A stretch of DNA of 57,132 bases. It comes from Rhodothermales bacterium. Its GTDB lineage: Bacteria; Bacteroidota; Rhodothermia; Rhodothermales; JAHQVL01. A program made the translations under genes and the position numbers. Every line of letters starts with the position of its first letter. Position 1 is the first letter of the stretch. Shown in pieces: positions 14,891-35,681 of this stretch. The notes beneath the pieces were generated by a model, which ran no database searches, was not told where the DNA came from, and saw nothing but the letters and a program-made list of their open reading frames with translations. The stretch covers positions 1-57,132 of the forward strand of contig JAWXAX010000190.1 of the NCBI GenBank assembly GCA_034439735.1. The letters run 5' to 3'.

Positions 14891-14920
14891 TTGACATAGA
14901 GGCATACAGGGTTCTATAAT
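14891..14920 (+). promoter_or_regulatory. Consensus sigma-70 promoter of csp
   Basis: TTGACA at 14891-14896 and TATAAT at 14915-14920, both perfect consensus hexamers, separated by 18 bases. Transcription would start near 14927, giving a leader of about 115 bases before the csp ATG. It is the strongest promoter match I see in the window and does not follow the TAnnTTTG type common in other Bacteroidota. Confidence 0.85.
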
Positions 14921-18947: not shown

Positions 18948-19484
18948 TCAGGAATAGACACGCAGTAGAACGAATACCAGCACGCCAGTAACCGACACGT
19001 ACAGCCAGAGCGGCAGGGTTATCCTGGCGATACGAGGATGTCGGTCGAAACGCCCCTTGAGCGCAAAAAACAGGGTAATCAGCGCGAGGGGGAGCACCGC
19101 GATCGACAAGGCGATGTGGCTGATCAAAATACTGAAATAGACCGGCCGGATAAAGCCCACACCCGTAAACGGCGTATCGCCGTGGTGGTAGTGGTAAATG
19201 AGGTAACTGACGAGGAACAGCCCGGAGAAGACAAATGCGCCTAGCATAAACCGGCGGTGCATCTGGATATTGCGGCGACGAATGAACACGTAGCCGATCA
19301 GGAGGCACAATGCGCTCAGCGAATTTAGGAGCGCGTTCACAGCGGGTAAAAACGACACATCGACCGCCTCGCCCGCCGCCGGCTCGTTGAAGTAGATCAA
19401 CCAGATGAGAAACCCACTGGCCGCGGCACTGGCCAACAGGATTGTACGGATGGCGCCGTCGCCGGCTCTGCTGGATTCAAACAT
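18948..19484 (-). CDS. DUF420 membrane protein (CtaM/YozB-like)
   Basis: 178 residues with five predicted helices. The sequence FLPAVNALLNSLSALCLLIGYVFIRRRNIQMHRRFMLGAFVFSGLFLVSYLIYHYHHGDTPF...RPVYFSILISHIALSIAVLPLALITL is typical DUF420, with conserved His residues in the third and fourth helices. A Bacillus/Staphylococcus member (CtaM) is required for heme-copper oxidase activity, which fits the oxidase cluster 2 kb away on the same strand, though cheV lies between. The ATG at 19484 is chosen; a GTG at 19496 would add four residues. Confidence 0.85.
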   Translation of the reverse strand: MFESSRAGDGAIRTILLASAAASGFLIWLIYFNEPAAGEAVDVSFLPAVNALLNSLSALCLLIGYVFIRRRNIQMHRRFMLGAFVFSGLFLVSYLIYHYHHGDTPFTGVGFIRPVYFSILISHIALSIAVLPLALITLFFALKGRFDRHPRIARITLPLWLYVSVTGVLVFVLLRVYS

Positions 19485-19588
19485 ACGGATGACCACTTCG
19501 GGCGAGACGGATACAGTTGCGTTAAGCGTTTGCGAGAAAAAGCCGATGATCCAGGTTTATCGTGTCGAGAACAAACCCCGGGGATCCC

Positions 19589-20551
19589 ATGTCGGCCGCA
19601 CTATCCAATATACTGAAGCCAGGTACCAACGAATTCGAGATCATCGAATTTGCTCTGGGACATGTCACCGACGAAGGCGAGGAGGTCATCCAATCGCTCG
19701 CCCTCAATGTTGCCAAGGTTAGGGAGATCATTCCCATGCCGACATTGACGCGCCTCCCCCAGATGCCCCCTGGCGTGTGCGGGATCACCCATTTGCGCGA
19801 TCGAATCATCCCGGTAATTGATCTAGGTTATTTCCTGTACGGCCAGGCAAGAATCTCAAAGGCAGAGCACTTGATCGTCAGTGAGTTCAACGGGACACGC
19901 CTGGGCCTCGTCATCGACTCCGTCAAGCGCATCCACCGCTTGAGCTGGCAGGCATTTACGCCACCAGAATCGCTTAAAGGTGTCGCCCCCAACTGCGACT
20001 CGATCGTGGGTATCCTCATGATCGACAACCGCACGATCATGATGATCGATATCGAACGCATCCTCGCCGAGATCCATCCGAAGTTCGCGTTTGTCAACAC
20101 CTCGAATGTGCCCGCGGACTTTGGCGTCAAGCACCGTGTCATGACCGTGGAGGACTCCGCCATCATCCGCAAGCTCATTCATAACGAACTCAACTCGGTC
20201 GGTTTCCAGATCATCTCGCTCAACGATGGGCAGGAGGCGTGGGAACTACTCCAGTCGTACGCCAGGCGCGTCAGCGAGGGCGACGCGTTATCCGATATCG
20301 TCAATCTGGTCATCACCGACATCGAGATGCCGCGGATGGATGGGTACACGTTGACCAAGAACATCAAAACCCATGAGATTCTCAAGCGGATACCGGTCGT
20401 GATCTTCTCTTCGATGATCAGTGATGACAACCTCCACCACGGCGAACACGTCGGGGCGGACGCGCAGCTGGCCAAGCCTCAGATCACCCGGTTGCTGGAT
20501 TGTTCGCGATCGCTGCTGACGGGTAAAAAAGTAGAGCCCCAGCTCGCGTAG
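19589..20551 (+). CDS. cheV: Chemotaxis coupling protein CheV
   Basis: About 320 residues: CheW-like domain (1-170) fused to a response-regulator receiver domain (about 190-315). The start MSAALSNILKPGTNEFEIIEF aligns with B. subtilis CheV, so the ATG at 19589 is preferred over a GTG at 19562. The receiver shows acidic residues VED (near 187-189), the phosphoacceptor D244 in VITDIEMPRMDGY, a Ser/Thr position in VVIFSSM and a Lys in LAKPQ. CheV couples receptors to CheA and is tuned by phosphorylation. No receptor, CheA or flagellar gene is in the window, so it is an orphan here. Confidence 0.93.
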   Translation: MSAALSNILKPGTNEFEIIEFALGHVTDEGEEVIQSLALNVAKVREIIPMPTLTRLPQMPPGVCGITHLRDRIIPVIDLGYFLYGQARISKAEHLIVSEFNGTRLGLVIDSVKRIHRLSWQAFTPPESLKGVAPNCDSIVGILMIDNRTIMMIDIERILAEIHPKFAFVNTSNVPADFGVKHRVMTVEDSAIIRKLIHNELNSVGFQIISLNDGQEAWELLQSYARRVSEGDALSDIVNLVITDIEMPRMDGYTLTKNIKTHEILKRIPVVIFSSMISDDNLHHGEHVGADAQLAKPQITRLLDCSRSLLTGKKVEPQLA

Positions 20552-20565
20552 GCGAACCGGGGCTC
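20534..20565 (-). terminator. Terminator of the azurin/ctaA unit
   Basis: Read on the minus strand, GAGCCCC / GGGGCTC arms are followed three bases later by TTTTTT. It lies 25 bases beyond the azurin-like stop codon and overlaps the last codons of cheV on the other strand. Confidence 0.75.
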
Positions 20566-20589: not shown

Positions 20590-21099
20590 CTACTCGACCG
20601 AGTGCATCACGCCTTTCATCAGGGCGAAGTGCCCGGGGAAGGTGCAGATAAACGGGTAGTCCCCGGCCGGCGGGGCCGTGAATTCGACCGATTTGGTCTC
20701 ACCCGGCATAGCGATGGCCGTCGCGAACAGAACGGCGTCGCTCTCTGGCACATACTGCTTGGCCGCGCCAGCTTGCATGCCGGCCATGCCCACAGCATTG
20801 ATGTCCGATGCTGGTTTCAGCACCACGACATTGTGCTGCATCGCCGGGCTCTTGGCCGTGTTTTTCATGGTCAGCTTGACTGTCGTGCCGGCCTTCACCG
20901 TGAACTCGGTCGTGGCGAACTTCATCTCGTCACCCACCGGTTCGATGATAATCTCCTGAACCGCTTCCTCGCGAACGGATACGGCACGCATCGTATCCTG
21001 TTCATCGGAAGGCGCCGAGGCAACCTGGGAATTCGGTTCCGTGGTGCAAGCGCCGAGCGCGAGCAGGGTAACCAGTACGGGTACGGTATATCGTTTCAT
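20590..21099 (-). CDS. Azurin/auracyanin-like blue copper lipoprotein
   Basis: 169 residues. Signal peptide with lipobox LGAC (lipidated Cys18), a variable linker, then a cupredoxin domain (about 55-169). Type 1 copper ligands are all visible: H89 in QHNVVV, and C152, H157, M161 in FICTFPGHFALMKG. It is probably anchored to the periplasmic face and carries single electrons, here most plausibly between alternative complex III and the caa3 oxidase as proposed for auracyanins. It is the last gene of the 22.9-20.6 kb unit, 51 bases after ctaA. No cofactor partner is directly shown. Confidence 0.92.
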   Translation of the reverse strand: MKRYTVPVLVTLLALGACTTEPNSQVASAPSDEQDTMRAVSVREEAVQEIIIEPVGDEMKFATTEFTVKAGTTVKLTMKNTAKSPAMQHNVVVLKPASDINAVGMAGMQAGAAKQYVPESDAVLFATAIAMPGETKSVEFTAPPAGDYPFICTFPGHFALMKGVMHSVE

Positions 21100-21150
21100 A
21101 ATCGTTTTCCTTGTCTTGATGCCCGAATGACGGCGTCGTAGATCGAACGC

Positions 21151-22086
21151 CTACTCTCTCAGGTGTTGTTCAGGGAGTGGTTTTCGTACTCCCAGTATCG
21201 TTAACATAACGGTGGCCGCCATCAGGCTGGCGCCCACAACCATGTGAGTGGTATTCAGTAACACTTGTAGGCCGCTGCGTCCGATGCCCGCTTCTTGAAG
21301 CAGCACCGCATACGCAACAAACCCTAAACCGATCTGCGCTACTAATAAAACGGCCATGACACCCGACACATGGTGCACCAGTGTGCCCCGTGTGGACGAC
21401 AGGCGCACCCACCGGATGGCCATGAGGAGGATGCCGAACACCAGAAACGCCCCGGTCATGTGAATCATCGCCAGGGCCACATCCACTCCCTGCCCGACAT
21501 GTCTCAGGACCGCGCCCAACACGACCTGTCCATACAATGCGCTAACCGGTAGCCAGAAGTAGCGACGCAGCGCATCGCCCGCCTCTCCTTCCGCAAGCCC
21601 CTCCCTGTTTAACCACGTTGGGGTCGTAAACACCCACATGGCCGCTAACAGTGAGAAGTATAGCTGCGCCACGCAGGCGTGGATCACCGCCAGGTTAAGC
21701 GACTGCCATAGGACGCGAAAACCACCGAGTGTCCCCTGTACGATGACGAGGACAAGGGCTATCATCCCCAGATACTTCATCCAGCGCCGTGGATCTGCGT
21801 ACCAGGTCCACCCCGCCAGTACGATCGTACAAAAGCCCACGAGCATCCCGAGCAACCGATGGCCATGTTCGGCCAGTACCGGCGGAATGGCATACCACTG
21901 GGGCATCGGGTTGATGGGGTCGTAAGAATCAAACGAAGTGGGCCAGTCGGGCACGGCCAGGCCGGCATCAATGCTGGTCACGACCGCTCCCCAGGAAAGA
22001 AGAACAATCGTGCAGCCCAGGGTAACAAGGGTGAAGCGTCGCCGCCGGCGCAGATCGGGAGAGAGAAGCGTGGCCTGATCGGGCAT
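21151..22086 (-). CDS. ctaA: Heme A synthase (COX15/CtaA)
   Basis: Converts heme O to heme A for cytochrome aa3-type oxidases; inner membrane. 311 residues with eight helices. Family landmarks: GAVVTSIDAGLAVPDWPTSF (the first helix-loop with the conserved Pro-Asp-Trp-Pro), AEHGHRLLGMLVG (conserved His pair), LAVIHACVAQLYFSLLAA, and in the second half VDVALAMIHMTGAFLVF and LLNTTHMVVGASLMAATVM. Sequence before the first helix is arginine-rich. ATG at 22086 preferred; a GTG at 22095 adds three residues. Lies between the CusF-like and azurin-like genes and serves the oxidase encoded just upstream; ctaB is elsewhere. Confidence 0.95.
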   Translation of the reverse strand: MPDQATLLSPDLRRRRRFTLVTLGCTIVLLSWGAVVTSIDAGLAVPDWPTSFDSYDPINPMPQWYAIPPVLAEHGHRLLGMLVGFCTIVLAGWTWYADPRRWMKYLGMIALVLVIVQGTLGGFRVLWQSLNLAVIHACVAQLYFSLLAAMWVFTTPTWLNREGLAEGEAGDALRRYFWLPVSALYGQVVLGAVLRHVGQGVDVALAMIHMTGAFLVFGILLMAIRWVRLSSTRGTLVHHVSGVMAVLLVAQIGLGFVAYAVLLQEAGIGRSGLQVLLNTTHMVVGASLMAATVMLTILGVRKPLPEQHLRE

Positions 22087-22206
22087 GTGAAGCACAGAGG
22101 GTGCAAATCGGAAGGCGGGCTGAATAGATTCGAGAGCCCCGTAGTTAATCCTGCTTCCAACAACGAGACCGGGAAGAGGCAGTTCCGTTAAAAGCCCTTG
22201 AAGGCG

Positions 22207-22548
22207 TTACCCCGGGAGCCGGTCGACCCGGACGATCGCGACGCCATCCAACGCCACGCGAACGTCGAAAACCACGGAATCGGCCATGCCAATGCCGGTG
22301 AGCAGGGACGTGTCCATCACCGCAAAATGCATGGACATTGCGTCCATGAACCCCGGGATGTCTTCGTGATCAATCTGGACGAACTGGCGTGACGGGGTGA
22401 TGCGCTCGACGACACCGATACCCGTATAAGTCTTCACGGCCGAAGCATCTTGCGAATCAGCGGAAGGGCCGCAAGAAGCGCCCGATATCAGCATGAGGCT
22501 ACCGGCAACCATGAGACGGAAAGTGGAGGAGCGGAGGGGCGTCAGCAC
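22207..22548 (-). CDS. CusF-like copper-binding lipoprotein
   Basis: 113 residues from a GTG at 22548: lipoprotein signal MLTPLRSSTFRLMVAGSLMLISGASC and a CusF-type OB-fold copper domain, GVVERITPSRQFVQIDHEDIPGFMDAMSMHFAVMD...GMADSVVFDVRV. The metal-binding pattern is the His in IDHEDIPGFM and the two Met residues of M-D-A-M-S-M, as in CusF (His, Met, Met). It should carry Cu(I) in the periplasm; the position between oxidase genes and ctaA argues for copper delivery rather than efflux. The GTG is preferred because the ATG at 22512 would remove the positively charged start of the signal peptide. No efflux pump genes are nearby. Confidence 0.8.
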   Translation of the reverse strand: MLTPLRSSTFRLMVAGSLMLISGASCGPSADSQDASAVKTYTGIGVVERITPSRQFVQIDHEDIPGFMDAMSMHFAVMDTSLLTGIGMADSVVFDVRVALDGVAIVRVDRLPG

Positions 22549-22591
22549 ACGGAACGGGGAGAAAAAGGGAGCCCGCGCGGGGCAAGGCGCG

Positions 22592-22903
22592 TCAATTCCG
22601 GCGGCCGTGGAGGTCTTCGAACCAGCAGAGCGGAAGCCCTTCCGAGTCGCCGTGCGCGAAGTGATAGGTCGACTGCGGCGCATCATGGCTGAGGTAACGC
22701 TGGTCCTCCCGTATTTCCCGGATCCCGACGGGGATGCTGGCGCCCTCCTGGGTGGCGTGCCGGCGGAATAAGGCGGCATCACGATCGACCAGAAGCGGCT
22801 TTTCAGGAAAAAAGATCCGGCATGCTGTCACCACGACCCAGGTGAGCATGAAAAACAGAATCGGAACAGCGATGATGGCGAATAGTGCAAAAACAGTCAG
22901 CAT
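22592..22903 (-). CDS. Small membrane protein of the copper/heme A unit
   Basis: 103 residues, not recognised. One N-terminal hydrophobic span (VFALFAIIAVPILFFMLTWVVVTACRIFF, long enough for one helix or a hairpin) is followed by a polar, His- and Arg-rich domain (PEKPLLVDRDAALFRRHATQEG...YLSHDAPQSTYHFAHGDSEGLPLCWFEDLHGRRN). It is the first gene after a good promoter (22946-22974) and is followed by CusF-like, ctaA and azurin-like genes, so a role in oxidase assembly is a reasonable guess. The C-terminal His and Cys residues could bind metal; that is speculation. Confidence 0.65.
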   Translation of the reverse strand: MLTVFALFAIIAVPILFFMLTWVVVTACRIFFPEKPLLVDRDAALFRRHATQEGASIPVGIREIREDQRYLSHDAPQSTYHFAHGDSEGLPLCWFEDLHGRRN

Positions 22904-22945
22904 GGAGCACAGAGGGGCCGGAAACCAATCTGATTATCTCACTGG

Positions 22946-22974
22946 ATTGTAGTTGCTTCCCGGCACTCTTTCAA
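22946..22974 (-). promoter_or_regulatory. Promoter of the copper/heme A unit
   Basis: On the minus strand TTGAAA (22974-22969), 17 bases, TACAAT (22951-22946): five of six matches in each hexamer. The start point would be near 22939, about 36 bases before the ATG at 22903. It lies beyond the oxidase terminator, so the downstream genes form a separate unit. Confidence 0.7.
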
Positions 22975-23076
22975 GGGGTGCTGCAAAAACCCTGACGAGG
23001 TGCGGACAGAAAAGCCAACAGGAGGAGGAACAGCCTATCTGACAACGCGCTTTGCTCGAGGTTCCGATACAAAATA

Positions 23077-23102
23077 GGCGGTGCGACAAAAGCCGCACCG
23101 CC
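23077..23102 (-). terminator. Terminator of the act-cox operon
   Basis: GGCGGTGCG / CGCACCGCC nine-base arms with an eight-base loop, followed on the minus strand by TATTTTGT. It is 34 bases after the stop of the subunit IV gene. Confidence 0.8.
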
Positions 23103-23135
23103 CGGAATCATCATTCAAAATAGCGCTAGAGGAGC

Positions 23136-23528
23136 TTAGTGAGCCGCCGGCGGCGCGGCCTCATCCACGCCTTCCAGCGCACGTCGTTCTTCTTCGATCG
23201 TCTGTTTACCCACATTCCCGATATCGCCGCGGAAGGCGGTGTCGAATATGGTGAAGGTGAGGAACACGATGACAAAGATGCAGCCTACGGCGAAGATGAG
23301 GGCATTCACCCGGTTGTCCCACTTCAGCCCCATGAAGAACGTGACGACCAGACCCGCCTTCATGATGGCAATCACGATAGCGAGGACAATGTTAAACGGC
23401 CCGAGATCAACGAATTCGGCCGTCAACACGGTAAAGATAGTCAGGAACACCAGCCCGCCGAATACGGAGAGCAGCAGTTTGAGCGGGATGATGTGGTGTC
23501 CGTGATTCGCTGCGTGTGCGTGTGCCAT
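23136..23528 (-). CDS. coxD: Cytochrome c oxidase subunit IV (caa3 type)
   Basis: 130 residues. His-rich N-terminus (MAHAHAANHGHHIIPLK), three helices (about 17-38, 45-68, 75-98: VFGGLVFLTIFTVLTAEFV, NIVLAIVIAIMKAGLVVTFFMGL, ALIFAVGCIFVIVFLTFTIF) and an acidic tail. This is the bacterial COX4 / CyoD-like subunit IV family that stabilises the oxidase. Last gene of the long respiratory operon, 63 bases after subunit III and directly before a terminator. Confidence 0.9.
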   Translation of the reverse strand: MAHAHAANHGHHIIPLKLLLSVFGGLVFLTIFTVLTAEFVDLGPFNIVLAIVIAIMKAGLVVTFFMGLKWDNRVNALIFAVGCIFVIVFLTFTIFDTAFRGDIGNVGKQTIEEERRALEGVDEAAPPAAH

Positions 23529-23591: not shown

Positions 23592-24275
23592 CTAGATGAG
23601 ATACATCAACGGGAAGAGGAATATCCAGATGATGTCGACGATGTGCCAGTACAGACCGGTGAGTTCGACCGGGGTGTACCAGCTGCTCGAAAAGTGGCCG
23701 CGCATGGCGCGAAAGACCAGCCAGCTCATCAAGAACATCCCGACGAGCACGTGTACGCCGTGGATGCCGGTCATGATGAAGTAGATGCTGAAGAACTGCG
23801 GAGCATACAGCATTTCGAGGTCGTGGCTGGCGTAATGCGCCCCCGGGAAGATACCGTGTTCGAACTTGGATGTATACTCGAAATACTTGACGACCATGAA
23901 GACGCCGGCGAGCAGCACCGTGATCACCAGGTTGGTGATCAGCATCTTCCGGTTGTCCTTCTGTGCAAAGTGGATGGCCATGGCGACCGTAAGCGAAGAC
24001 GCCAGCAGGACGAGCGTGTTAAAGCCGCCGAGGCGCCAGTCCAGCAGCTTGCTGGCGGCCTGAAACACTTCCGGGTGCCATACGCGGTAGACCGTGTAGG
24101 CCACGAACATACCGCTGAAAAGCAGGATTTCCGTAACGAGGAAGAGCCACATGCCCATCTTCGCAGCGTCAAATTGCTGTTCGGACGTCACGAAGTGGTG
24201 TTGCAGGTGCGAGGGATGCGCCGGCTCCGCGTGTCCGCTACCCATGGAGGATGTTACGGTTGAAGTCGTTGCCAT
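23592..24275 (-). CDS. ctaE: Cytochrome c oxidase subunit III
   Basis: 227 residues, five helices, as in caa3 oxidases whose subunit III lacks the first two helices of the mitochondrial form. Markers: KMGMWLFLVTEILLFSGMFVAYTVYR (conserved Glu in the lipid/proton-channel region), NTLVLLASSLTVAMAIHFAQ, FSIYFIMTGIHGVHVLVGM (conserved His-Gly-x-His) and GLYWHIVDIIWIFLFPLMYLI. Integral to the inner membrane beside subunit I. 77 bases after ctaD. Confidence 0.95.
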   Translation of the reverse strand: MATTSTVTSSMGSGHAEPAHPSHLQHHFVTSEQQFDAAKMGMWLFLVTEILLFSGMFVAYTVYRVWHPEVFQAASKLLDWRLGGFNTLVLLASSLTVAMAIHFAQKDNRKMLITNLVITVLLAGVFMVVKYFEYTSKFEHGIFPGAHYASHDLEMLYAPQFFSIYFIMTGIHGVHVLVGMFLMSWLVFRAMRGHFSSSWYTPVELTGLYWHIVDIIWIFLFPLMYLI

Positions 24276-24352: not shown

Positions 24353-26047
24353 TCAGTGGCGGATCCGAGGTTCAGGCTCGGCCTGGTTCGCGCCATCACC
24401 GGCGAAGGAGTCGCGGAGTACTTCGAAGTCGTACGGTCCGTGCGTCACGATCGGCTGCGCGCTGAAGTTGTGCGCGACGGGCGGCGACGTGGCGTTGGTC
24501 CACTCGAGCGTGGCGGCGCCCCACGGATTGGCCGGCGCGCGTTGACCGCGCCTCAGCGAATGGATGAGGCATCCCAGCACAGTGAACAACCCGAGCGCGA
24601 GCACCCAGGAGCCGATCGTCGAGGCCAGGTGGAGGTTCGCGAATTCCGGCACATAATCGTAATACCGGCGCGGCATGCCCTGGCTGCCGAGGATCAGCTG
24701 CGGGAAAAACGTCAGGTTGAATCCGAAGAAGATCAACAGCGCCGCGATGCGGGCCGAGGCTTCGTGGTACATCTTGCCCGTGATCTTGGGCCACCAGTAG
24801 TGTAACCCGCCCAGGGCGGCAATCACGGTGCCGCCCATCATTACGTAGTGGAAGTGGCTGACCACGAAGTACGTATCGTGCAAGTGTACGTCGATCGCCA
24901 GCACACCCAGCATGATGCCTGTAAGCCCACCGATGGTAAACAGAAAGAGAAAGCTCAGCGCATACAACATGGGCGTCATGAGCCAGATCGAGCCCTTGTA
25001 CATCGTGGCCACCCAGTTACACACCTTGACACCTGTAGGAATCCCGATGAGATAGGTGATCAGGGAGAAAACGATGGACGAGACGGCGGACTGTCCTGAG
25101 ACAAACATGTGGTGGCCCCAGACGAGGAAGCCCAGGAACGCGATGGCCACGGATGACAGCGCGACGAACTTGTAGCCGCTGATGGCCCGGCGCGAGAACG
25201 GCGCGATAAGCTCCGAGATCACCCCGAACGCCGGCAGAATCATGATGTAAACGGCCGGGTGGGAGTAAAACCAGAAGAAATGCTGGTAGAGCACCGGATC
25301 GCCGCCGAGGAGCGGGTCGAAGATGCCGATCTGCAGGAAGCGTTCGGCGAACAGGAGGATCATCGTGATGCCGATCACGGGGGTCGCCAGCACCTGCACG
25401 ATGCTGGTGGCGTAGATGCTCCACGAAAAGAGGGACAGCCGATTCCAGGTGAGGCCCGGGGCGCGCATCTTGTGGATCGTCACGACAAAGTTGATACCGG
25501 TGAAGATTGACGAGAAGCCGGCTACAAAGACCGCCATCGTCAGGAATAGGACCGAAGAGTTCGTCGTGGTCGAATAGGGCGCGTAAAACGTCCATCCCGA
25601 ATCCACGCTGCCGGCGAACAGACCCAGCAGGACTAACACTCCGCCGGCGAGGTACACATAATAACTCGCCAGGTTTAGCCGTGGGAACGCCACGTCGATC
25701 GCGCCCAGGTGCATCGGCAGGATGAAGTTGCCGAAGATGGCCGGAATCGAGGGCACCAGGAACAGGAAGACCATCACGATGCCGTGCATCGAGAAGACCT
25801 GGTTATAGGCATCCGGCCCCATGATCGTCTGCCCCTGCGTCATCAACTCGAGACGTACGAGCAGGGCGAGTATGCCGCCGATGAAGAACATGATCGAGAG
25901 CGTGATCATATACATCACGCCGATCCGCTTGTGGTCGATCGTAGACATCCACGACCACACCGTCTTGACGTGGTTGAGGTAGTTCTCCGACCCCTGATGG
26001 GTTGCCGTGGCTTCAGCGCTGTGCGCCGACGAGGCAGAATGACTCAT
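24353..26047 (-). CDS. ctaD: Cytochrome c oxidase subunit I, A2 type
   Basis: 564 residues, twelve or more helices; holds heme a, heme a3 and CuB and reduces oxygen. The start is a short His/Ser-rich tail, then [16 protein letters not shown]. Heme a ligand region [10 protein letters not shown]; CuB region [22 protein letters not shown]-channel [16 protein letters not shown]; and [19 protein letters not shown] with heme ligands. The motif YSHPAVY replaces the Glu-containing HPEVY of A1 oxidases, so it belongs to the A2 group, as described for Rhodothermus marinus caa3. Third cox gene after sco and subunit II. Confidence 0.97.
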
Positions 26048-26086: not shown

Positions 26087-27028
26087 TTACTGCTGCAGCT
26101 CAATAAATTCGATCAGGGCCGACACCTGACGTTCGTCCAGGCTGCTGTAGCTGGCCGGCATGATCGGCGAGAATCCCTGGACGATATGCGCCATCGGATT
26201 CAGAATCGATTCGCGGATGTAGTTGTCGTCGGCCGTTGCCGTCGACCCATCTTCAAACGTCCGCTGAGAGCCGTAGAGACCTTTAAACGAAGGTGCGATG
26301 ACCTGGGTGCCGTCGATCGAGTGGCACGTGAAACACGCCTGCTGCTGATACAGCGTCGCGCCGTATTCTGGCAGGGGCATCTCGTCGAAATTCCCACCTC
26401 CAGACTCGACCCATTCGGTAAACTCTTCCTGCGGCAACACGATCACCTTGGCTAACATGCCGGAGTGCTGCGTGCCGCAATATTCCGTACAGAAGATATG
26501 CTTCTCCCCTTCGGTGGTTGCGTTGAACCAGACCGCTGTGTACCGGTTGGGCAGCACATCGTGTTTGACGCGGAAGGCCGGCACGAAAAAGCTGTGGAGC
26601 ACATCTTCACTGCTCATCACGAGGCGGACATTCCGACCGACCGGCACGCGCAGTTCGTTGGTGGCGCGGGTGCCGTTCGGGTATTCGAACTCCCACAGCC
26701 ACTTCTTGGCGCGCACCGTGATTTCGTACGAATCCGGAGGCGCGGTACTAAGTCGCAGGAACGATTGGAAGCCCCAGGTGAAGACGATGAGGCAGAGGAT
26801 GGTCGGCACTACGATCCAGGAGAGCTCCATGAGCTTATTTTCCTCGACATGCGGCGGCATCTCGTCGGCCTTGCGCCGGCGATACTTCACCACGAAGATT
26901 AACATGGCGAGCACCACCAGCGCGAAGATGATCACGCTGATCCAGTAGACGAAATAAAAAAGACTGTCGATCTCGGGCGCCAGCGTCGATTCTGCCGGTG
27001 GCAGCCAGAGGGTTCCTTTAGGTTCCAT
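26087..27028 (-). CDS. ctaC: Cytochrome c oxidase subunit II fused to cytochrome c (caa3)
   Basis: About 313 residues: two helices (about 22-48 and 68-92), a cupredoxin CuA domain, and a C-terminal class I cytochrome c. CuA ligands: H145 (VLHSFFVP), C180, E182, C184, H188, M191 (IFCTEYCGTQHSGM). Heme c: C232-F-T-C235-H236 with a Met in SPIMPASY as likely axial ligand. The fusion defines a caa3 oxidase that accepts electrons directly from ACIII or a soluble carrier. ATG at 27028 is chosen because the upstream extension to 27076 would overlap the sco stop and lacks homology. No lipobox at the N-terminus. Confidence 0.96.
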   Translation of the reverse strand: MEPKGTLWLPPAESTLAPEIDSLFYFVYWISVIIFALVVLAMLIFVVKYRRRKADEMPPHVEENKLMELSWIVVPTILCLIVFTWGFQSFLRLSTAPPDSYEITVRAKKWLWEFEYPNGTRATNELRVPVGRNVRLVMSSEDVLHSFFVPAFRVKHDVLPNRYTAVWFNATTEGEKHIFCTEYCGTQHSGMLAKVIVLPQEEFTEWVESGGGNFDEMPLPEYGATLYQQQACFTCHSIDGTQVIAPSFKGLYGSQRTFEDGSTATADDNYIRESILNPMAHIVQGFSPIMPASYSSLDERQVSALIEFIELQQ

Positions 27029-27038
27029 GGTATTGGTG

Positions 27039-27878
27039 TTAATGGAGAGCCGCCGCGGCCAGCCGCATTCGCTCACGTCGCCAGAACAGAGTCAGCGCCA
27101 GACCGAGCGCCAGCACGGTCAGCCCTCCTCCGAGCTTCATTACATTGGAGGCCTGCAAGACGTACGAATTGGCATCCGGATCGTACTTGAGGCAGTAGAG
27201 AATGATCTGGTCGATCGGTGTGCCGATCGTACCGTTCGAGGCTTCGAGCAGGGCCAGCCGTACCGCACGAGGTTCGAAGCTGAGTCCCTGAATATACCGG
27301 GAAATCCGGCCATCCGCCGTCAAGAACGTGAGGGCCGCCGGATGGGCATACTGCTGGATCTCCTCGATCCACTTAAACCGAAAGCCGACCGCATTCGCCA
27401 GGGCGAGGATGGAGGCCTCGCTCCCTGTCAAAAAGTGCCAGCCCGCGCCGGCCTCGGGTTTCCCGAGCATAGCGAGGTAGTGCGCCTTCTGGCGCGCCGC
27501 ATCTGCGGGCGTATCCTGAGCCGAGAAGCTGATCGACAGCACCTCGAACTCCACCCCGGGTGTCCAATCCATCTGGCCCAGGGTGCCTGTCAGGCCCGTC
27601 AGCAGGATACTGCACACCATCTCACATGTGTGGTATACAAAAGAGAGCAGCACCGGTTTTCCGGTCGTGAAATAACTCCCCAGCGTCACCGGCTCGCCGG
27701 CTTCGTTATAAAAAACCAGCGTATCGGGAATAGCGGCGCCGAGGCGTTGATCCAGCCCGACCCCATCAAACACCGCCGGGAGTTCGCCTGATTTCTGGGC
27801 GTACACCCTCCCTGCGCCGGCACCCGCATGTAGGGCCAGTAGGACGAGGAGCGATATGAGGGATAGGGCTCGCGGCAT
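27039..27878 (-). CDS. sco: SCO1/SenC family copper chaperone
   Basis: 279 residues: signal peptide, thioredoxin-like domain and a C-terminal membrane helix (about 248-268). The copper site is complete: C-E-M-V-C in YHTCEMVCSILL (CxxxC) and the His in YAHPAALTFL. It metallates CuA of subunit II, the next gene 10 bases downstream. The C-terminal helix after the thioredoxin fold is unusual, since Sco1 is usually anchored at its N-terminus, but this form occurs in related caa3 clusters as far as I recall. Start ATG at 27878. Confidence 0.93.
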   Translation of the reverse strand: MPRALSLISLLVLLALHAGAGAGRVYAQKSGELPAVFDGVGLDQRLGAAIPDTLVFYNEAGEPVTLGSYFTTGKPVLLSFVYHTCEMVCSILLTGLTGTLGQMDWTPGVEFEVLSISFSAQDTPADAARQKAHYLAMLGKPEAGAGWHFLTGSEASILALANAVGFRFKWIEEIQQYAHPAALTFLTADGRISRYIQGLSFEPRAVRLALLEASNGTIGTPIDQIILYCLKYDPDANSYVLQASNVMKLGGGLTVLALGLALTLFWRRERMRLAAAALH

Positions 27879-27903: not shown

Positions 27904-28302
27904 TTACTTAATCGGTTGCGCGAGTCGGGGTTCCGACGAATGGGCCGCTTGCATGCCCTTCGCGTAAGCTTCGTTTGCGATCGCCTTCATGGCCTCCTGA
28001 ATGGGGATCTGGTAGACCCCGCTTCCCGCGTCCACGGTGGCGTAGTGCGAAAGCCGGCTCGCGGCATCAGCGCGAAGACTACGTAATTCTGGATACTGGA
28101 TGGCGGCGGTAGCCACGTTCCGGATTTCCAGGCTTTTCACGCTCGTGACGGTGAAGCCCACCGCGACCAGCATGATCACGATGACGATCGTGCCGAGCAT
28201 GATGCCGAAGACAAAGCTGGCATTGATGCCCTCGTTCTCGATATCGGTCGGGCCGCCGTGGTGGTCGTGCGCGTCGTGCGTCGTAGGAGAGGTAGGATTC
28301 AC
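27904..28302 (-). CDS. Small one-helix protein of the act operon (possible ActG)
   Basis: 132 residues from a GTG at 28302. A His-rich N-terminus (THDAHDHHGGPTDIENEGI), one helix (SFVFGIMLGTIVIVIMLVAVGFTV, about 29-52) and a periplasmic-side tail with YPELRSLRADAASRLSHYATVD...YQIPIQEAMKAIANEAYAKG. It lies 25 bases after actF and 25 before sco, so it is almost certainly a member of the operon. A seventh subunit, ActG, has been described in some alternative complex III preparations; this could be its counterpart, but sequence alone does not prove it. Confidence 0.7.
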   Translation of the reverse strand: MNPTSPTTHDAHDHHGGPTDIENEGINASFVFGIMLGTIVIVIMLVAVGFTVTSVKSLEIRNVATAAIQYPELRSLRADAASRLSHYATVDAGSGVYQIPIQEAMKAIANEAYAKGMQAAHSSEPRLAQPIK

Positions 28303-28327: not shown

Positions 28328-29599
28328 TTACGAGTTTGTAAAGCGGAGCGACTTCTGCAGATTCGGGTCGTTCACGGGCACCAGGCTGTGCCGGCTGAGG
28401 CGGTACATGAACACCCCGAAAAACACCCCGAAGAGGCCGAGCCAACTGGTGAAGTCGAGCCAGTGGAAGCCGGCATGACCGCCACGGGCGATATCGAGCA
28501 CCGGCATGACGATCCAGTGCAGATCGAACCAGTGCATCACGAGCATCCAGACAGTCATGAACCCCAGCACGGCCGGCGACCGCTTGGCGCCGCGCGAAAT
28601 CAGCACGATGAACGGGATGATGAAGTGCATGGCGAGGAGGGCCGCGCTATGGTACTCCCACCCATGCTCCAGGCGATGCCGGAACCAGACGGTTTCCTCG
28701 GGGAGGTTACCGTACCAGATGAGCATGTACTGGCTGAACGCGATGTAGGTCCAGAAAACGGTAAAGCCGAACAGCAGCTTGCCCAGGTCCTGATAGTGCT
28801 CCAGGGTGACGACGCCGGGCAGCATCCCGCCGGGGCCCTGCACCAGGAGCGAGGTAAATGTGATGAGGGCCAGGGCGCTCACGAAGCAGCCAGCGAAGAA
28901 ATACACGCCGAACATAGTGGAGAACCAGTGCGGATCCAGCGACATCAGCAGGTCGAACCCGGCAAAGGCGGTCGTTATGGCAAAGAGCGGGAGCCCCCAG
29001 GCGCTCGTTTTGCGCTGCATTGCAGGAATCGCCGGATCGCCGGTGACGTCCTGACGCAGAGATAGGCTGTAGAGCCGGTAGGTGACGAGGGTCCAGACGG
29101 CGAAATAAAACAGCAGACGGAGGAGGAAGAAGGGAACGTTCAGGTACGCCTCTTTGCCGGCGATGACACGGTCGTAGGCCGGATTGGTGGGATCGAACAG
29201 CTCGTGGTGCGTCCAGTGGTAGAGGTCATGCATCCCGTAAATCACCGGGAACGCGAGGATCGCGAGCAGTGGGAAGGTCCACATGAGCGCTTCCGGGATA
29301 CGGCGGACGACCACGCTCCAGGCGGACCTCGTGAGGTGCTGGATAAGCACGAAAAAGAGCGCGCCGAGGGCGATCGTCAGGCAGAACACCCAGCCGATCA
29401 GGTACGAAAAGAAGAACTGCTGCCGGTCCGCCGCGCCGCCGATGGCGGTGATGACCAGCAACACGATGCCGATCGCGAGTGGCGCGAGCCACCACGCCGA
29501 CCCGCCGGAGAAGCGATAGGTCGCGTCGGTATCCGCGCCGGTGGGCCGAAAGGGGTCGGCCAGCCAGGTCAGGGGCGAATTAGATTTGATCTCAGCCAT
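28328..29599 (-). CDS. actF: Alternative complex III subunit ActF (NrfD-like)
   Basis: 423 residues with about ten helices; one of two NrfD/PSR-type membrane subunits of the quinol:cytochrome c oxidoreductase. N-terminal half: [25 protein letters not shown] and [50 protein letters not shown], the typical ActF start with conserved His and Arg. Later [26 protein letters not shown] and [28 protein letters not shown] are strong ActF marks. The quinol site is generally assigned to ActC, so ActF is presumed structural or proton-translocating. 63 bases after actE. Confidence 0.95.
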   Translation of the reverse strand: [423 protein letters not shown]

Positions 29600-29662
29600 G
29601 GAAACTCAGTATGCGGCGGGCCTACGCCCGCGCTCGCTAGGAAGTCGAATCCGTGAAGGGGT

Positions 29663-30325
29663 TCAGCCGCCGGTTTGTAGCCGGCTCAGCTCGCTCTGCG
29701 GCACATCGGTCGCCGGCGCGTTCTGGCTGCGCTGGAGCGCGCGGACATAGGCGACGATGGCCCACCGATCGGCCACGGGAATCTGCGGCGCATACGGCGG
29801 CATGTTTCGGATGCCGTTCGTGATCACATCGTAGATATAGCCGTCTTCGATCGTGCGCAGGCGGTCCACATGGAAATCCGGCGCCGGCACGTAGCCGTAG
29901 CCGGCCCCACCGTTGCCCACCATGATGATGCCCTTGCCGTCGCCGGCCTGGCCGTGGCACACGGCGCAGTAGATGTCGTACCGATTCTGACCACGGGACA
30001 GCAGGTCCGCCGTGGCCGGAAGCGGCATGGCGGCCACCAGCGCGCCACTCGCTTCGCGGCCGAAATAAAACCGGCTGTCTTCTCGAAGGAATCCGCGCGC
30101 CACCGTTCCGGGAACGGGCGGCCGCATGGCCATCCGGTTCTCAAAGAATCGGTTCTCCTGTTGGCCGATAAATTTCTCCTGGCGGTCCATGTTCGGGTTG
30201 ATGTGGATCGGAGGCTTGCTGGACTCCGTTCCGCGGCATCCCGTCAGCACCAGGAGGCTGGCCAGTAGTCCGTATGTCGCCACTATTCGCTTTAACGGGA
30301 TTCGCTTCATCGGTATGCGCTTCAT
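29663..30325 (-). CDS. actE: Alternative complex III subunit ActE (monoheme cytochrome c lipoprotein)
   Basis: About 220 residues from the ATG at 30325. Lipoprotein signal with Cys30 (LLVLTGC), then the ActE-specific stretch PPVPGTVARGFLREDSRFYFGRE and a cytochrome c domain with heme motif C120-A-V-C123-H124 and GYGYVPAPDFHVDRLRTIEDGYIYDVITNGIRNMPPYAPQIP. Carries electrons from the ACIII heme chain to the oxidase. The N-terminus is a five-residue tandem repeat (MKRIP-MKRIP-LKRI) encoded by 15-base DNA repeats, so either of two ATGs (30325 or 30310) could be used. An upstream frame to 30427 would overlap actD. Confidence 0.92.
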   Translation of the reverse strand: MKRIPMKRIPLKRIVATYGLLASLLVLTGCRGTESSKPPIHINPNMDRQEKFIGQQENRFFENRMAMRPPVPGTVARGFLREDSRFYFGREASGALVAAMPLPATADLLSRGQNRYDIYCAVCHGQAGDGKGIIMVGNGGAGYGYVPAPDFHVDRLRTIEDGYIYDVITNGIRNMPPYAPQIPVADRWAIVAYVRALQRSQNAPATDVPQSELSRLQTGG

Positions 30326-30362
30326 CAGTATCGATCGATCGGATCGTGAATAACTCGGAACG

Positions 30363-31016
30363 TCAGTGGGTTGCCGCGTGGGTATCGGCGGCGGCCGGGG
30401 CGGGGGCGATGCCCATGTCGGCAACACCGTGATCGTGGATAACCTCGACGCTCATCGCACCGATGCGCTTCAGGAATTCCGTGGTCTTCTCCAGATCAAA
30501 CTGCGCATCCGAAGCCGCGATATGGAGAAAAAAGCCGTCGTCCGTCACACGGGTAAAGGCCTCCGAATAAAAGAGCGGATTGTAAGGACGAGGGAGGCCG
30601 TTGAAGGCAAACATCGCGGCCACCGCCGCAAAGGCCGAAAACAGGATCGTCAACTCGAACATCACCGGGATGGAAGGCTCGACGGCAAAAAAGGGCTTGC
30701 CGCTGATGTTGATCGGGTAGTCGATCTGCGATGTCCACCACTGGAGCCAGGTGGCCAGCGCGAGGCCGGTTGCTCCGCCAAGGATGACCACATACCCGAT
30801 ATTCGAATTACCCAGCCCCATCGCCTTATCCATGCCGTGGACAGGAAACGGGCTGTGGGCATCGTAATCCGAGTAGCCGGCCTGGTGTGTATCGGCGGCG
30901 GCGTGGAGCAGCGTGCTCGGGTTCGAAAACTCGGCGAGCAGGCCGTAGACACCGTCGGCATTGCTGTCGAAGATGCCCATCGAGGTTTTCGAGGAGCGGA
31001 TGAGATTTTTAAACAT
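30363..31016 (-). CDS. actD: Alternative complex III subunit ActD (DUF3341)
   Basis: 217 residues. DUF3341: an N-terminal soluble part with GVYGLLAEFSNPSTLLHAAADTHQAGYSDYDAHSPFPVHGMDKAMGL, two membrane helices (about 72-92 and 117-137, GYVVILGGATGLALATWLQW and PVMFELTILFSAFAAVAAMFAF) and a ferredoxin-like C-terminal domain (FFLHIAASDAQFDLEKTTEFLKRIGAMSVEVI). It clamps ActC, ActE and ActA in the known ACIII architecture. 53 bases after actC and 37 before actE. A His/Ala-rich tail ends the protein. Confidence 0.95.
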   Translation of the reverse strand: MFKNLIRSSKTSMGIFDSNADGVYGLLAEFSNPSTLLHAAADTHQAGYSDYDAHSPFPVHGMDKAMGLGNSNIGYVVILGGATGLALATWLQWWTSQIDYPINISGKPFFAVEPSIPVMFELTILFSAFAAVAAMFAFNGLPRPYNPLFYSEAFTRVTDDGFFLHIAASDAQFDLEKTTEFLKRIGAMSVEVIHDHGVADMGIAPAPAAADTHAATH

Positions 31017-31069
31017 GGCTCGAGAGATCGCGTGTCGTCAAAACCGTTGTCCAGATGGGCCGCGCCGGC

Positions 31070-32512
31070 TTAATGTCCGCCGGGCTTCACCTGGTGGGCA
31101 GCGTGGCCGGAGTGGCCGTCGCCGTGATGCTCGTCATAATAGTGAGGATCCGCCTCGGGCATGACGCCCTTCACCTCGGCAATGGCCACCATCGGCACCC
31201 AGCGCAAGAAGAGGAGGAAAAGCGTTAGAAAGAGGCCGAACGTGCCTACAAACGTAAAGACGTCGACAAAGGTCGGCGAGTAATAATCCCACGCGCTGGG
31301 CATGTAATCCCGATGCAGGGAGATAACGGTGATCACGAAGCGCTCGAACCACATCCCGATGTTGACGATGATCGACGTCACGAACATAAACGGGATGCTC
31401 CGGCGAAGCTTCTTGATCCAGAAGAACTGCGGGAAGAGCAGGTTACAGGACATCATGGTCCAGTACGCCCAGGCGTACGGCCCCGTCGCGCGGTTGAGGA
31501 AGGCGTAGAATTCGTACTGGCTGCCCGAATACCAGGCGATGAAGAACTCGGTGATGTAGGCAAAACCGACCATCGTGCCCGTCACCAGGATGATGATGTT
31601 CATCTTTTCCAGGTGCGCGATCGTGATGAGGTTCTCGATGCCATACACCTTCCGCGAGATGACCATCAGGGTCACCACCATGGCGAAGCCGGAGAAGATA
31701 GCGCCGGCGACGAAGTACGGCGGGAAGATGGTGGTGTGCCAGCCCGGGACGACCGATACGGCGAAGTCGAACGACACGACCGAGTGCACCGAAAGCACCA
31801 GCGGGGTGGCGAGCGCTGCCAGGATCAGGTACGTCTTTTCGTAGTTGCGCCAGTGCCGGTTCGCACCCGTCCAGCCCATCGAGAAGAACGAGAGCACCTT
31901 ATGCCGCCACACCTTCCGGGTGCGGTCGCGCAGGGTGGCGAGGTCCGGAATGAGACCTACATACCAGAACACGAGCGACACGAGGAAGTAGCTGGAAACC
32001 GCAAACACGTCCCAGAGCAGCGGGCTCTTGAACTGCGGCCACATGTCCATCTGATTCGGAATGGGAAGCATCCAGTACGCGGCCCAGATACGGCCGACGT
32101 GAATACCCGGGAAGACGAGCGCGCAGATGACGGCGAAGAGCGTCATGGCTTCCGCGGCGCGGTTGATCGACGTCCGCCATTTCTGCCGAAAGAGAAAGAG
32201 GATCGCCGAAATCAGCGTGCCGGCGTGGCCGATACCCACCCAGAACACGAAGTTGACGATAGCCCACCCCCAGCCGACCGGGTTATTGAGGCCCCAGACG
32301 CCGGTGCCGTTCCAGACGAGGTAGGCGATCATGATTAGCAGCAGCCCCGCGATGCTGCTCGCAAAGCCGAAGGCGGCGTACCACGCCAGCGGCGTCTTCT
32401 TCTCCGTATGCAGCGACACCATGGTGGTGATGTCGTGAAACGAAAGGTTTCCGGTGATAAGCGGGGGATCAAGGTGGACCCCTTCTCCGTGTGTCGTTGC
32501 TGGTTTGCTCAC
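31070..32512 (-). CDS. actC: Alternative complex III subunit ActC (NrfD-like, quinol site)
   Basis: 480 residues from a GTG at 32512, ten helices. NrfD/PsrC family; forms the quinol-oxidation site with ActB on the periplasmic side. Marks: [28 protein letters not shown] at the start, [49 protein letters not shown] (conserved His, Gly and Arg), [33 protein letters not shown], and [29 protein letters not shown]. The start was placed after the actB stop; a later ATG at 32422 would lose the conserved 'FHDIT' segment. Ends in a His-rich tail. Confidence 0.94.
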
Positions 32513-32573
32513 GATACGTTCTGTTGCTAATGCGCTGGGTAGCGGGTCAACCGATCGGGCCGATCCTTTCGGA

Positions 32574-35500
32574 TCAGGCCGTGGCGGCCTCAAGTTCTGG
32601 ATTGGGATTCATCACGCGCCCCAGGTAGGAAGTCCGGGGCTTCGTGCTGAGTTCGGCAAGCATCTCGTAGCGCCGGTTGTCCTGGCGCGCCTTCGACACG
32701 TCGCTATTCGGATCGTTGATATTGCCGAACACGATGGCGCCGGCGGGGCATGCCTGCTGGCAGGCCGTCTTCACCTCGCCATCCTGTATCGCGCGATTCT
32801 CGAGGCTGGTGCGGATGTTCGCCTGACGCACGCGCTGGATACAGAACGAACATTTCTCCATGACGCCGCGCGAGCGGACCGTCACGTTGGGGTTCTGCAC
32901 CATGTGTACTTCGAGCGGCAGTGTCTTCGCCCAGTTGTAGAAGTTGAACCGGCGCACCTTGTACGGGCAGTTGTTCGCGCAGTAGCGCGTGCCGATGCAC
33001 CGGTTGTAGATCATCTGGTTCGTGCCATCCGGCGAATGGACCGTCGCGGCCACCGGACAGACGGCCTCACACGGGGCGTTTTCGCAGTGCATGCACAACA
33101 CAGGCTGCATGACCATCTTCGGGTTTGCCTCCTGGCCCTCCTCGCTCACGAAGTAGCGGTCCATTCGGATCCAGCTCAATTCGCGGCCCCGGCTCACCTG
33201 GTCTTTTCCGACAACCTGGATGTTGTTTTCCGACTGGCAAGCGACCACGCAGGCGTTACAGCCGGTGCACGTGTTGAGGTCGATCACCATTCCCCACTGG
33301 TAGACATGGTACGGGTTGTCCTTCAGCGCCGGCTCGGTCGTCGGGTGGCGCTCCTGCCACAGGGCGGGATAATCCGCCCAGGGCTCGCCGCCCGGCAAGG
33401 TCTTGATGGCGTCTGCCGCGAAACCGGGGTCTTCGCGATACGTGTCGACGGTGGCCATGCGGTAAAACGGCCGGCCTTCCATGTAGCCGTGATCCTGCGT
33501 GGTGGCCACCAGGTAACCGCTCGACACTTTGCTCACCGTTGCACCCGTCGCGATGCGCATGGCGCCCGGGGTGCGGAGCGTGGCGACGTTGGCGCCCACG
33601 CCCGTAGCGACCGCCCCCTTGCCGTAGATGTCGGTCTTATCGTCTGTATCGAAGAAGTTCGTGATCCGCTCCGCACGATGTGAAACGATCTGGCGACCGT
33701 AGCCTAGCGTCACGGTAACCGAGTCGTCCGCATGGCCGGGAAGGATCCAGATCGGCAACTGCACGACACCGCCACCGGCCGTGATCTCGACCACGTCGGC
33801 GTAGTGCATGCCTTTATCGTAGGGCACTTCGAGGCCGAGGCGTTCCGCCGTGGCCGGGCTCATCAGGGCCACGTTATCCCACACCACCTTAGAGGCCGGA
33901 TCGGGTAGTTCCTGGCACCAGGCGTTGTTCGAGAAGCTGCCATCGAGCACCTTGTTGTCGAGCCGAATGACCACTTCGATTTCATCGCCGCTGACCGTAT
34001 ACGGGCTGGCGCCCGCGACGGGGCGAAGGGCCGGGTCTACGATGGCGAAGCCACTGTTCGGGAGGAAGCCGTCGTGTATCACCTTTTTCCAGGCCGCCTC
34101 GATATCGCCTTCGAGCACCGTCCGCCACTGCTCGCGAACGAGGTCGTAACCCGACACGTCGAGGCCCGTGGCGAACGTGTGGAGCACTTCTATGTCCGAC
34201 TTTCCGTCGTGCAGCGGGGCGATGAGCGGCTGGATGACCGAGAGGGTGCCGTCGTAGGCGCGTCCGTCGCCCCAGGCTTCCAGGTAGTGCGCGAGCGGGA
34301 TGTGCCAACCGCTGGCGACAGCCGTCTCGTCCTGATGGAAGCCGAGGTGGATCGTCGTCGGTACCCGCGCGAGGGCGCCGGCGAAATCGATCTCACCCGG
34401 CATGTCGTACACCGGGTTCACACCGATCATGAGCAGCGCATCGACCGAGCCGTTGCTCATGTCGAACACCAGCTGTTGGAGCTGTTCAGCCTGCGCGGGC
34501 TTGACTTCTTCGTTCGTCTCGTACAGAAAGACCGTATTGCCGATGCTGCTGAGCCGCTTGTTGATGGCCATGCACAGCGCGTGGACCGAGGCCGGCTGGG
34601 TTTCGCCGGCGAGCACCACCCCGTTCGAGCCGGCGCGGAGCAGATCGCGCTCGATGGCCTGGACGTACGGGTGGTCGATAAATTCTGCGCCCACCCCCTG
34701 GACGCCCTCAACCCCGAGGCGCACCGCCAGGGCGGCGGCAAACGCGGGGATCTGACTGGAGCGCAGGCGGAGCCGGTTGTCCGCCGTGCCGCCGGTGACC
34801 GAATAGGTGCTTTCGACGACGTAGAGCCGGCTGATGTCGTCCTGCGCGGAGGTCATGCGCCGGCTGGCGGCAAATCCGCGCGTATTTGCGACGAAGTTGC
34901 GTTCGGCGGGACTCAGGAAATCGGCGTCGAGGCTGACGATCACTTCCGCCGATTCAAAACGGTAGGACGGGCGCAGCGCCATCCCGAACGCTTCTTGCAT
35001 GCCCATGCGGGCCGGGTCGTCCCCTTCGGCGGCGTAGGTCACCCAGCGAAGCTGCGGGTACACCTGCGCGAGCCGGCCGCGGAGCGCGTTCACCGTTGGC
35101 GACGAGGTCTGCTCGCATAACACCGCCACTTTGCGAGTACCGGCCTGGGCGAGGAAGCCCTGGCAGAACGCGACAAAGTCCGACCAGGTGGCTTCGTTCC
35201 CGTCGCGCAGCACGTGCTTGGAGCGGTCCGGATCGTACAGATTCAGGACTGACGCCTGCTCGAACAGACCGGACGCGCCCTGGCTGACCGGATGTTCGGG
35301 ATTACCTTCAACCTTGGTCGGCCGGCCTTCGAAGCTCTGCACCAGCAGGCCCGACACCACGCCGCGGAACGGCATCGCCGTCGCGTAAAAAAGCGGAATC
35401 CCGGGGATGATCTCCTCAGGCTTCCGCGCATAGGGCAGTGTAAGTTCAACCGGCCGGCGACACCCCGTCAACCCGGCCAGCGCCACCGAAGCACCCATCA

Positions 35501-35681
35501 GTTGTAGGAACTGACGCCGGGAGCTGCCGCCGGGGGAATCACTCGCGCCCGGCATGAACTCCTCATTCCCGAGGCGCTTAAACTGTGGATCCTGCCGCAG
35601 GTGCTGCAGGCTGCGCCAAAAGTGCTGCTTCTGGTCTCCCTCTGCCGACGAGGCGGCGTCAATCACGGGTAGTTCGATCAT
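32574..35681 (-). CDS. actB: Alternative complex III subunit ActB (molybdopterin-like + iron-sulfur)
   Basis: 1035 residues. Twin-arginine-like signal [22 protein letters not shown] (53-74) with a lipobox-like Cys74; a large domain related to molybdopterin oxidoreductases (about 90-750), which in ACIII binds no molybdenum cofactor; and a C-terminal ferredoxin-like domain with four cysteine clusters: [39 protein letters not shown] and CSFCIQRV...CQQACPAG, fitting three [4Fe-4S] and one [3Fe-4S] cluster. Electrons pass from quinol through these clusters to ActA. Located between actA (91 bases) and actC (61 bases). The Tat-variant signal form without cleavage is common in ActB. Confidence 0.96.

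Follow-up and report, generated by a model that had tools for sequence, protein, structure and literature searches.

A small membrane protein gene follows coxD in ACIII-caa3 clusters of Rhodothermales, with candidate oxidase-support genes beside it in one family

Background

In Rhodothermus marinus, the genes for alternative complex III (ACIII) and the caa3 oxidase form one cluster, with ActABCDEFG joined to the caa3 genes and ActH encoded elsewhere. Here we examine a comparable locus on a 57,132-nt contig (JAWXAX010000190.1, assembly GCA_034439735.1) of a Rhodothermales bacterium—this whole stretch is referred to as the window—and in particular positions 20,590-22,974, where four minus-strand open reading frames (ORFs) were confirmed: ORF103, encoding a 103-residue membrane protein, and the genes for a CusF-like protein, the heme A synthase CtaA, and a cupredoxin. 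Up to coxD, the gene order of relatives is that of R. marinus, including a one-helix ORF where ActG (PMC5928083) would be expected; unlike the R. marinus cluster as described, however, they carry ORF103 as a further small gene after coxD, which is not mentioned in the excerpted text of PMC5928083. Likewise, no literature found on the R. marinus cluster names a gene after coxD in its title or the start of its abstract. The same excerpt places an unidentified density of the R. marinus supercomplex on the periplasmic side.

The neighbouring products also have described counterparts. With CtaM (DUF420) of Bacillus subtilis and Staphylococcus aureus, the locus shares a DUF420 gene near oxidase-assembly genes (PMC9145763, in excerpt), although it belongs to another phylum and, in the window, the cupredoxin gene and cheV lie between the DUF420 gene and ctaA. 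The CusF-like protein resembles PCuAC (PccA) in using three Met and one His as Cu(I) ligands (PMC7558416, in excerpt) and in a presumed hand-over to SCO1. It belongs, however, to a different family, and shares with Escherichia coli CusF/SilF the fold and, among its ligands, His/Met/Met; unlike CusF/SilF, it has Met in place of Trp, a weak lipobox, and no CusBA nearby, the CusBA genes being on another contig. The cupredoxin shares H, C, H, and M with auracyanin A in the aligned region, residues that serve as type 1 copper ligands; unlike auracyanin A, it is encoded beside ctaA in an ACIII-caa3 cluster.

Results and discussion

ORF103 is a conserved gene that closes the cox cluster

On balance, we lean towards a reading in two layers: ORF103 as an accessory protein of caa3 or of ACIII-caa3, and, in the window's family, a set of oxidase-support genes behind a transcription start of their own. 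ORF103 (22592..22903, minus strand) belongs to an unnamed family of small single-helix membrane proteins and ends the ACIII-SCO1-caa3 cluster. Among 60 related genomes, the window's own included and all encoding CoxB, tblastn recovered it in 42 including the own genome (weakest match 3e-8; next 0.048), and a profile search added G011, G045, and G058, for a total of 45. In a sample of 395 genomes of the phylum, it was found in 30 of the 45 from its own order; the other 350 gave two marginal matches (E 0.003 and 0.008), which we take as chance because one lies inside a frame of 5145 amino acids and the other contains a stop. Within this sample, ORF103 is convincingly confined to its own order. 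A scan of viral contigs for it returned 24 pattern matches, of which none was confirmed.

The position of the gene is as constant as its occurrence is restricted. Neighbourhoods were fetched for 40 of the 41 tblastn loci in other genomes, and in all 40, drawn from many families, ORF103 is the next recognised gene 3' of coxD on the same strand. In 39 of them, the intervening gap does not exceed 286 nt; in L051 it reaches 1782 nt. Eight genomes have a gap of just 4-20 nt, which makes co-transcription with coxD likely there; in four further genomes (G011, G038, G045, and G058), ORF103 again comes after coxD. The order Act genes-SCO1-coxBACD-ORF103 holds wherever the neighbourhood extends far enough—four stretches (L022, L025, L027, and L037) start within the cox genes—and SCO1 was not detected in three neighbourhoods (L048, L049, and L050). 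Further downstream, 36 of the 40 stretches carry MTHFR, often with MTAN. The preliminary description of this DNA had placed ORF103 in a unit themed on copper and heme A; given this invariable linkage to coxD, at times within a few nucleotides, that assignment is not supported.

ORF103 is a real gene under purifying selection. Eleven pairs were compared: dN/dS was 0.03-0.26 in the eight with estimable dS; dS was saturated in the remaining three, among them both pairs that involve the window, and there pN/pS ranged from 0.16 to 0.32. W22, R101, and N103 are invariant in 36 aligned sequences and R102 is nearly so, giving a C-terminal consensus of DLWxRRN with a near-invariant RRN. A single N-terminal membrane helix is followed by a tail, which should be cytoplasmic because, across 41 sequences, the 30 residues that follow the helix contain on average 5.7 Lys and Arg, versus 0.1 before it. 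The preliminary description called the protein unknown; Pfam holds nothing for it, NCBIfam and solved structures gave no usable match, and single members of the family show weak Pfam matches to unrelated families. One relative, in G018 (L040), is 96 amino acids long.

Two candidate identities were tried and rejected. The window's tail contains two Cys and five His, which had been presented as a feature of the protein; this composition proved peculiar to the window, with tail Cys in 8 of 41 sequences, His counts from 0 to 6, and neither residue conserved, and ORF103 was on that account rejected as a metal-binding protein. It is also not ActG, for which another ORF of different sequence is available between ActF and SCO1.

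Taken together, ORF103 is a gene of the cox cluster whose function is probably linked to the oxidase, and its product is a promising candidate for a so far undescribed component, or an assembly factor, of the respiratory supercomplex. By its predicted topology, the N-terminus would face outward, followed by one helix and about 70 cytoplasmic residues, and the protein may act as a supernumerary subunit or as an assembly factor, docking through its conserved C-terminal DLWxRRN. If it is a subunit, this bears on how the ACIII-caa3 supercomplex holds together.

Several results pull the other way. In 13 genomes with CoxB and a readable cox locus, ORF103 is absent (scored without G055 and G059, whose contigs end too early) and is therefore dispensable there; the G011 protein, which stands outside the 36-sequence alignment, ends in RHN instead of RRN; and the AF2 model has a mean pLDDT of 77 but a pTM of 0.35, with zero Foldseek matches. 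Alternatively, ORF103 could encode a regulator, or a membrane protein with no link to the cluster that hitchhikes at its 3' end. The 13 genomes fit such an explanation, as do the gene's own promoter in the window (see below) and the lack of any redox motif or known domain among the features found. A hitchhiker, however, would hardly be expected at the same place in all 40 neighbourhoods, within 4-20 nt of coxD in eight genomes, and under purifying selection, and we judge this alternative unlikely.

Transcription signals around ORF103

In the window's family, ORF103 may be transcribed from a start of its own. A terminator-like hairpin of 12 pairs with a T run (23076..23103, minus strand; -25.4 kcal/mol) follows coxD in the window, and G001 and G002 have a hairpin at this point too, each of about -20 kcal/mol, such that coxD and ORF103 are separated in this way in all three genomes of the family. 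More broadly, an automatic scan, which missed the G001 hairpin, found such structures in 11 of 41 coxD-ORF103 intergenic stretches versus 1.2% of mononucleotide shuffles. Between hairpin and gene lies a sigma-70-like promoter, TTGAAA-17-TACAAT (22946..22974, minus strand), which was equalled or beaten by 5 of 2000 dinucleotide-block shuffles of the intergenic sequence. In G001 and G002, candidates with identical spacing in a similar place were matched by 193 and 473 of 2000 shuffles, respectively, and because they do not rise above shuffles, conservation of the promoter in the family is suggestive only. Site counts in the 12-kb region are likewise not above shuffles (promoters 8 vs 5.6, terminators 10 vs 10.4), so only individual sites stand out. 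In the window's family, then, the terminator after coxD, together with the good promoter in the window, would give ORF103 its own start. The four genes, the promoter, and the terminators after coxD and at the cheV 3' end, the latter a hairpin of 14 pairs overlapping that end (20534..20565, minus strand), are all present as first described; the separateness of the unit is supported by the hairpins and the window promoter, and not by the G001 and G002 promoters. As a single separate copper/heme A unit, the first description holds only in part.

ORF103 and CusF tend to occur together

Of 58 genomes scored, 40 have both ORF103 and CusF, 5 only ORF103, 1 only CusF, and 12 neither (Fisher 8e-8, a statistic that ignores relatedness). 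Under parsimony on a tree of 58 CoxA sequences, ORF103 requires 4 changes and CusF 9; the shared absences are those of G020 and of families f14 and f15. The association proposed as a check in the preliminary description is thus found, but it rests on few independent losses. As a separate observation, cox clusters without ORF103 (L098-L110) were seen in G012, G020, and families f14 and f15; members of these two families among the 60 genomes also lack PCuAC matches in addition to CusF.

The CusF-like protein may serve the oxidase

The CusF-domain gene (22207..22548, minus strand; GTG start at 22548 or ATG at 22512) encodes a protein matching Pfam CusF_Ec (PF11604; 9e-11, 41.9 bits against a cut-off of 27). 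Its AF2 model (pLDDT 89) forms a small beta barrel of five strands, for which apo-CusF 1zeq was the top Foldseek match (TM-score 0.69/0.81). The ligand set, H49, M56, M59, and M61, is invariant in 21 CusF domains of the order, and alignments place a Met where CusF of CusCFBA has Trp, a replacement that raises Cu(I) affinity according to the excerpted PMC7558416. The CusF part of the earlier label "CusF-like lipoprotein" is supported by the Pfam match, and the lipoprotein part is weak: the lipobox, identified by eye, is GAS-C, with a better one, LPA-C, in the G001 relative. CusF relatives occur in 41 of the 60 genomes. The own genome has a single CusF and two SCO1 matches, and PCuAC (PF04314) was not found in it.

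Two lines of evidence connect this domain type to SCO1. First, among 30 CusF loci fetched, all 28 readable ones have Met in place of Trp and 15 contain a strict SCO1 motif within the ORF itself; the remaining two are also of the Met type, one fused to SCO1 (L227) and one alone (L228). Second, of the best 80 Met-type loci from a scan of genome contigs (L118-L197), 67 are fused to SCO1, one of these also near CusBA; the rest comprise 2 beside SCO1, 2 near CusA/CusB only, and 9 with none of the tested genes. Because the same domain type is so often fused to SCO1, copper delivery by CusF to the oxidase is supported. In a 137-tip tree with E. coli CusF as the root, in which the domain is short and inner support moderate, the window's domain groups with mostly stand-alone domains of the order, within a 129-tip clade (support 0.93) that holds all 90 SCO1-fused and 2 of 6 efflux-labelled domains. 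Outside the order, 16 CusF stretches of the phylum include five SCO1 fusions (G062, G276, G108, G285, and G321), with a weak CusA piece at the edge of the G062 stretch; seven show neither SCO1 fusion nor CusBA, two are without metal ligands, and the remaining two, G210 and G248, have CusBA (see below), a mixed picture. Within the order, the G051 CusF stretch, one of the 20 discussed below, ends inside a probable SCO1 fusion. We found a CusF-SCO1 fusion named in no title or abstract start in the literature search, and the phrase "CusF domain" was not found in the literature text searched.

An export role has to be weighed against this. Under that explanation, the CusF-like protein acts in copper detoxification, as periplasmic chaperone to a CusBA-type exporter encoded elsewhere, its adjacency to ctaA being accidental. 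E. coli CusF works with CusCBA, and CusF is not involved in cuproprotein biogenesis according to the same review (PMC7558416, in excerpt). The own genome has, on contig C71, CusB beside a CusA with the Met triad, and this pair, together with the single CusF, means that the protein may serve export; the earlier statement that the genes stand "without any efflux pump" is accordingly true locally but not of the genome. Met-type CusF is found with CusBA in G210, and in G248 CusBA lies near CusF. A plasmid search with Met-type CusF returned 5 records, 2 of them annotated as RND efflux adaptors, whereas one with E. coli CusF returned 2900, nearly all annotated cusF/silF among the 40 matches listed. 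The contig scan, moreover, used a pattern that required Met, and the 80 loci are the best of 553 confirmed matches. Finally, in Caulobacter vibrioides, oxidase activity needed PccA and not Sco proteins, according to the excerpted text of PMC12617631. The Trp-to-Met change was dropped as a sufficient sign of oxidase use, since it occurs with CusBA too.

On the other side, no CusA/CusB was detected in a further 20 CusF stretches from the order (some just 4-7 kb), the Met-type domain is predominantly SCO1-fused, and in G001 CusF is again found between ORF103 and ctaA, with a single gene separating it from the latter and DUF420/CtaM nearby. The suggested supply of copper to the oxidase gains from the fusions, the G001 neighbourhood, and the order's stretches in which CusA/CusB were not detected, and loses from the CusBA pair of the own genome. 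We consider it more likely that the CusF-like protein supplies the oxidase than an exporter, the latter being a serious rival that we nonetheless regard as doubtful. According to the excerpted PMC6769254, cusF genes occur in bacteria without an export pump and must have another role there, a remark on which the CusF-SCO1 link bears.

The His-Met3 carrier would pass Cu(I) to SCO1, and SCO1 would in turn load CuA of CoxB. A more specific version of the two-layer reading, in which ORF103 is an order-specific caa3/ACIII-caa3 subunit held by RRN and the Met-type CusF is the CuA copper donor replacing PCuAC, is offered only tentatively.

Some further CusF loci deserve record. Many SCO1-fused Met-type loci are labelled Verrucomicrobiota or Acidobacteriota in their record titles. 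In L209 (G210), a CusF-like domain sits at the C-terminal end of the CusB frame, beside a second CusF and CusA, and in L223 and L224, domains without metal ligands lie in frames of 850 and 943 amino acids. CusF shares a frame with an apparent thioredoxin-like domain (by eye) in L080 (G038) and is close to SCO1 in L236 (G021), on a contig that also has a PCuAC match nearby. A Pfam scan of 10 hand-chosen of 57 neighbours of stand-alone CusF genes showed no shared theme.

CtaA, the cupredoxin, and DUF420 in the window's family

The CtaA gene (21151..22095, minus strand) matches Pfam COX15-CtaA (PF02628; 3e-14, 53.1 bits against a cut-off of 29.9), and the cupredoxin gene (20590..21099, minus strand; lipobox by eye) matches Copper-bind (PF00127; 7e-16, 58.8 bits against 21.2). 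Relatives of the two occur in 43 and 48 of the 60 genomes, respectively. The product first called azurin is a blue copper protein, but it falls below the equivalog cut-off of NCBIfam azurin (TIGR02695; 80.4 vs 105.1 bits) and is auracyanin-like, its best solved relative by sequence being auracyanin A.

Among the 40 stretches, CusF, CtaA, and cupredoxin genes adjoin ORF103 only in the window's family, and even there the arrangement varies. G001 has the order ORF103-CusF-DUF2461-CtaA-cytochrome c lipoprotein-DUF420, with its cupredoxin on another contig, and G002 has ORF103-CtaA-cupredoxin-cheV. Because a cytochrome c lipoprotein (L022, 7153-7563, minus strand) fills the cupredoxin's slot in G001, carrying electrons is a likelier role for the cupredoxin than that of the copper client it had been taken for. 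The G001 cytochrome and G002 cupredoxin share a leader (score 86, against a maximum of 54 in 1000 shuffles), which is a hint and no more because just 15 bases align at the DNA level and lipoprotein leaders can converge. This slot replacement, the placement of CusF on another contig in G002, and the constant position of ORF103 after coxD speak against one copper/heme A supply unit with the cupredoxin as client; although the promoter and terminators do bound the four genes, we hold that original explanation to be quite improbable.

In Roseiflexus, auracyanin accepts electrons from ActE (PMC8552683, in excerpt), and CtaM of B. subtilis has been proposed to export copper for Sco (PMC13344008, in excerpt). 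As support for the oxidase, CtaA would make heme A, the auracyanin-like lipoprotein may carry electrons in the ACIII/oxidase branch, and the DUF420/CtaM-like protein (18948..19496, minus strand, beyond cheV) may bring copper out of the cytoplasm. Three facts sit less easily with this second layer: the separate location of CusF in G002, a HiPIP match in the own genome as an alternative carrier (weak, just above its cut-off), and the cytochrome c domain that CoxB itself possesses. Separately, 17 genomes gave no match to the window's CtaA despite having CoxB (G005, G009-G013, G019, G022, G023, G029, G031, G032, G039, G046, G050, G053, and G059), perhaps because they use another CtaA type; some of these genomes are incomplete.

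Other features of the window

Upstream of ORF103, the same strand carries coxD (23136..23528; caa3 subunit IV), coxC (23592..24275; assigned by position and similarity among relatives), coxA (24353..26047; among solved structures, closest in sequence to 2yev, cytochrome c oxidase polypeptide I+III), coxB with its cytochrome c domain (26087..27076), and the SCO1/SenC copper chaperone of the cluster (27039..27878). The ActG candidate (27907..28302), named for its place between ActF and SCO1 and one hydrophobic stretch, has no Pfam match. Further upstream lie the ACIII genes ActB, ActC, ActD, and ActE and a 423-residue ActF, the last by position with no Pfam match (28328..35681), and ActA is placed upstream of this block, its exact reading frame being provisional. 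Rfam at gathering thresholds and tRNA scans gave no matches in the window. Apart from these genes, a promoter with a 12/12 match (TTGACA-18-TATAAT; 14891-14920, plus strand) lies upstream of an ORF at 15043 that, by eye, resembles a cold-shock protein.

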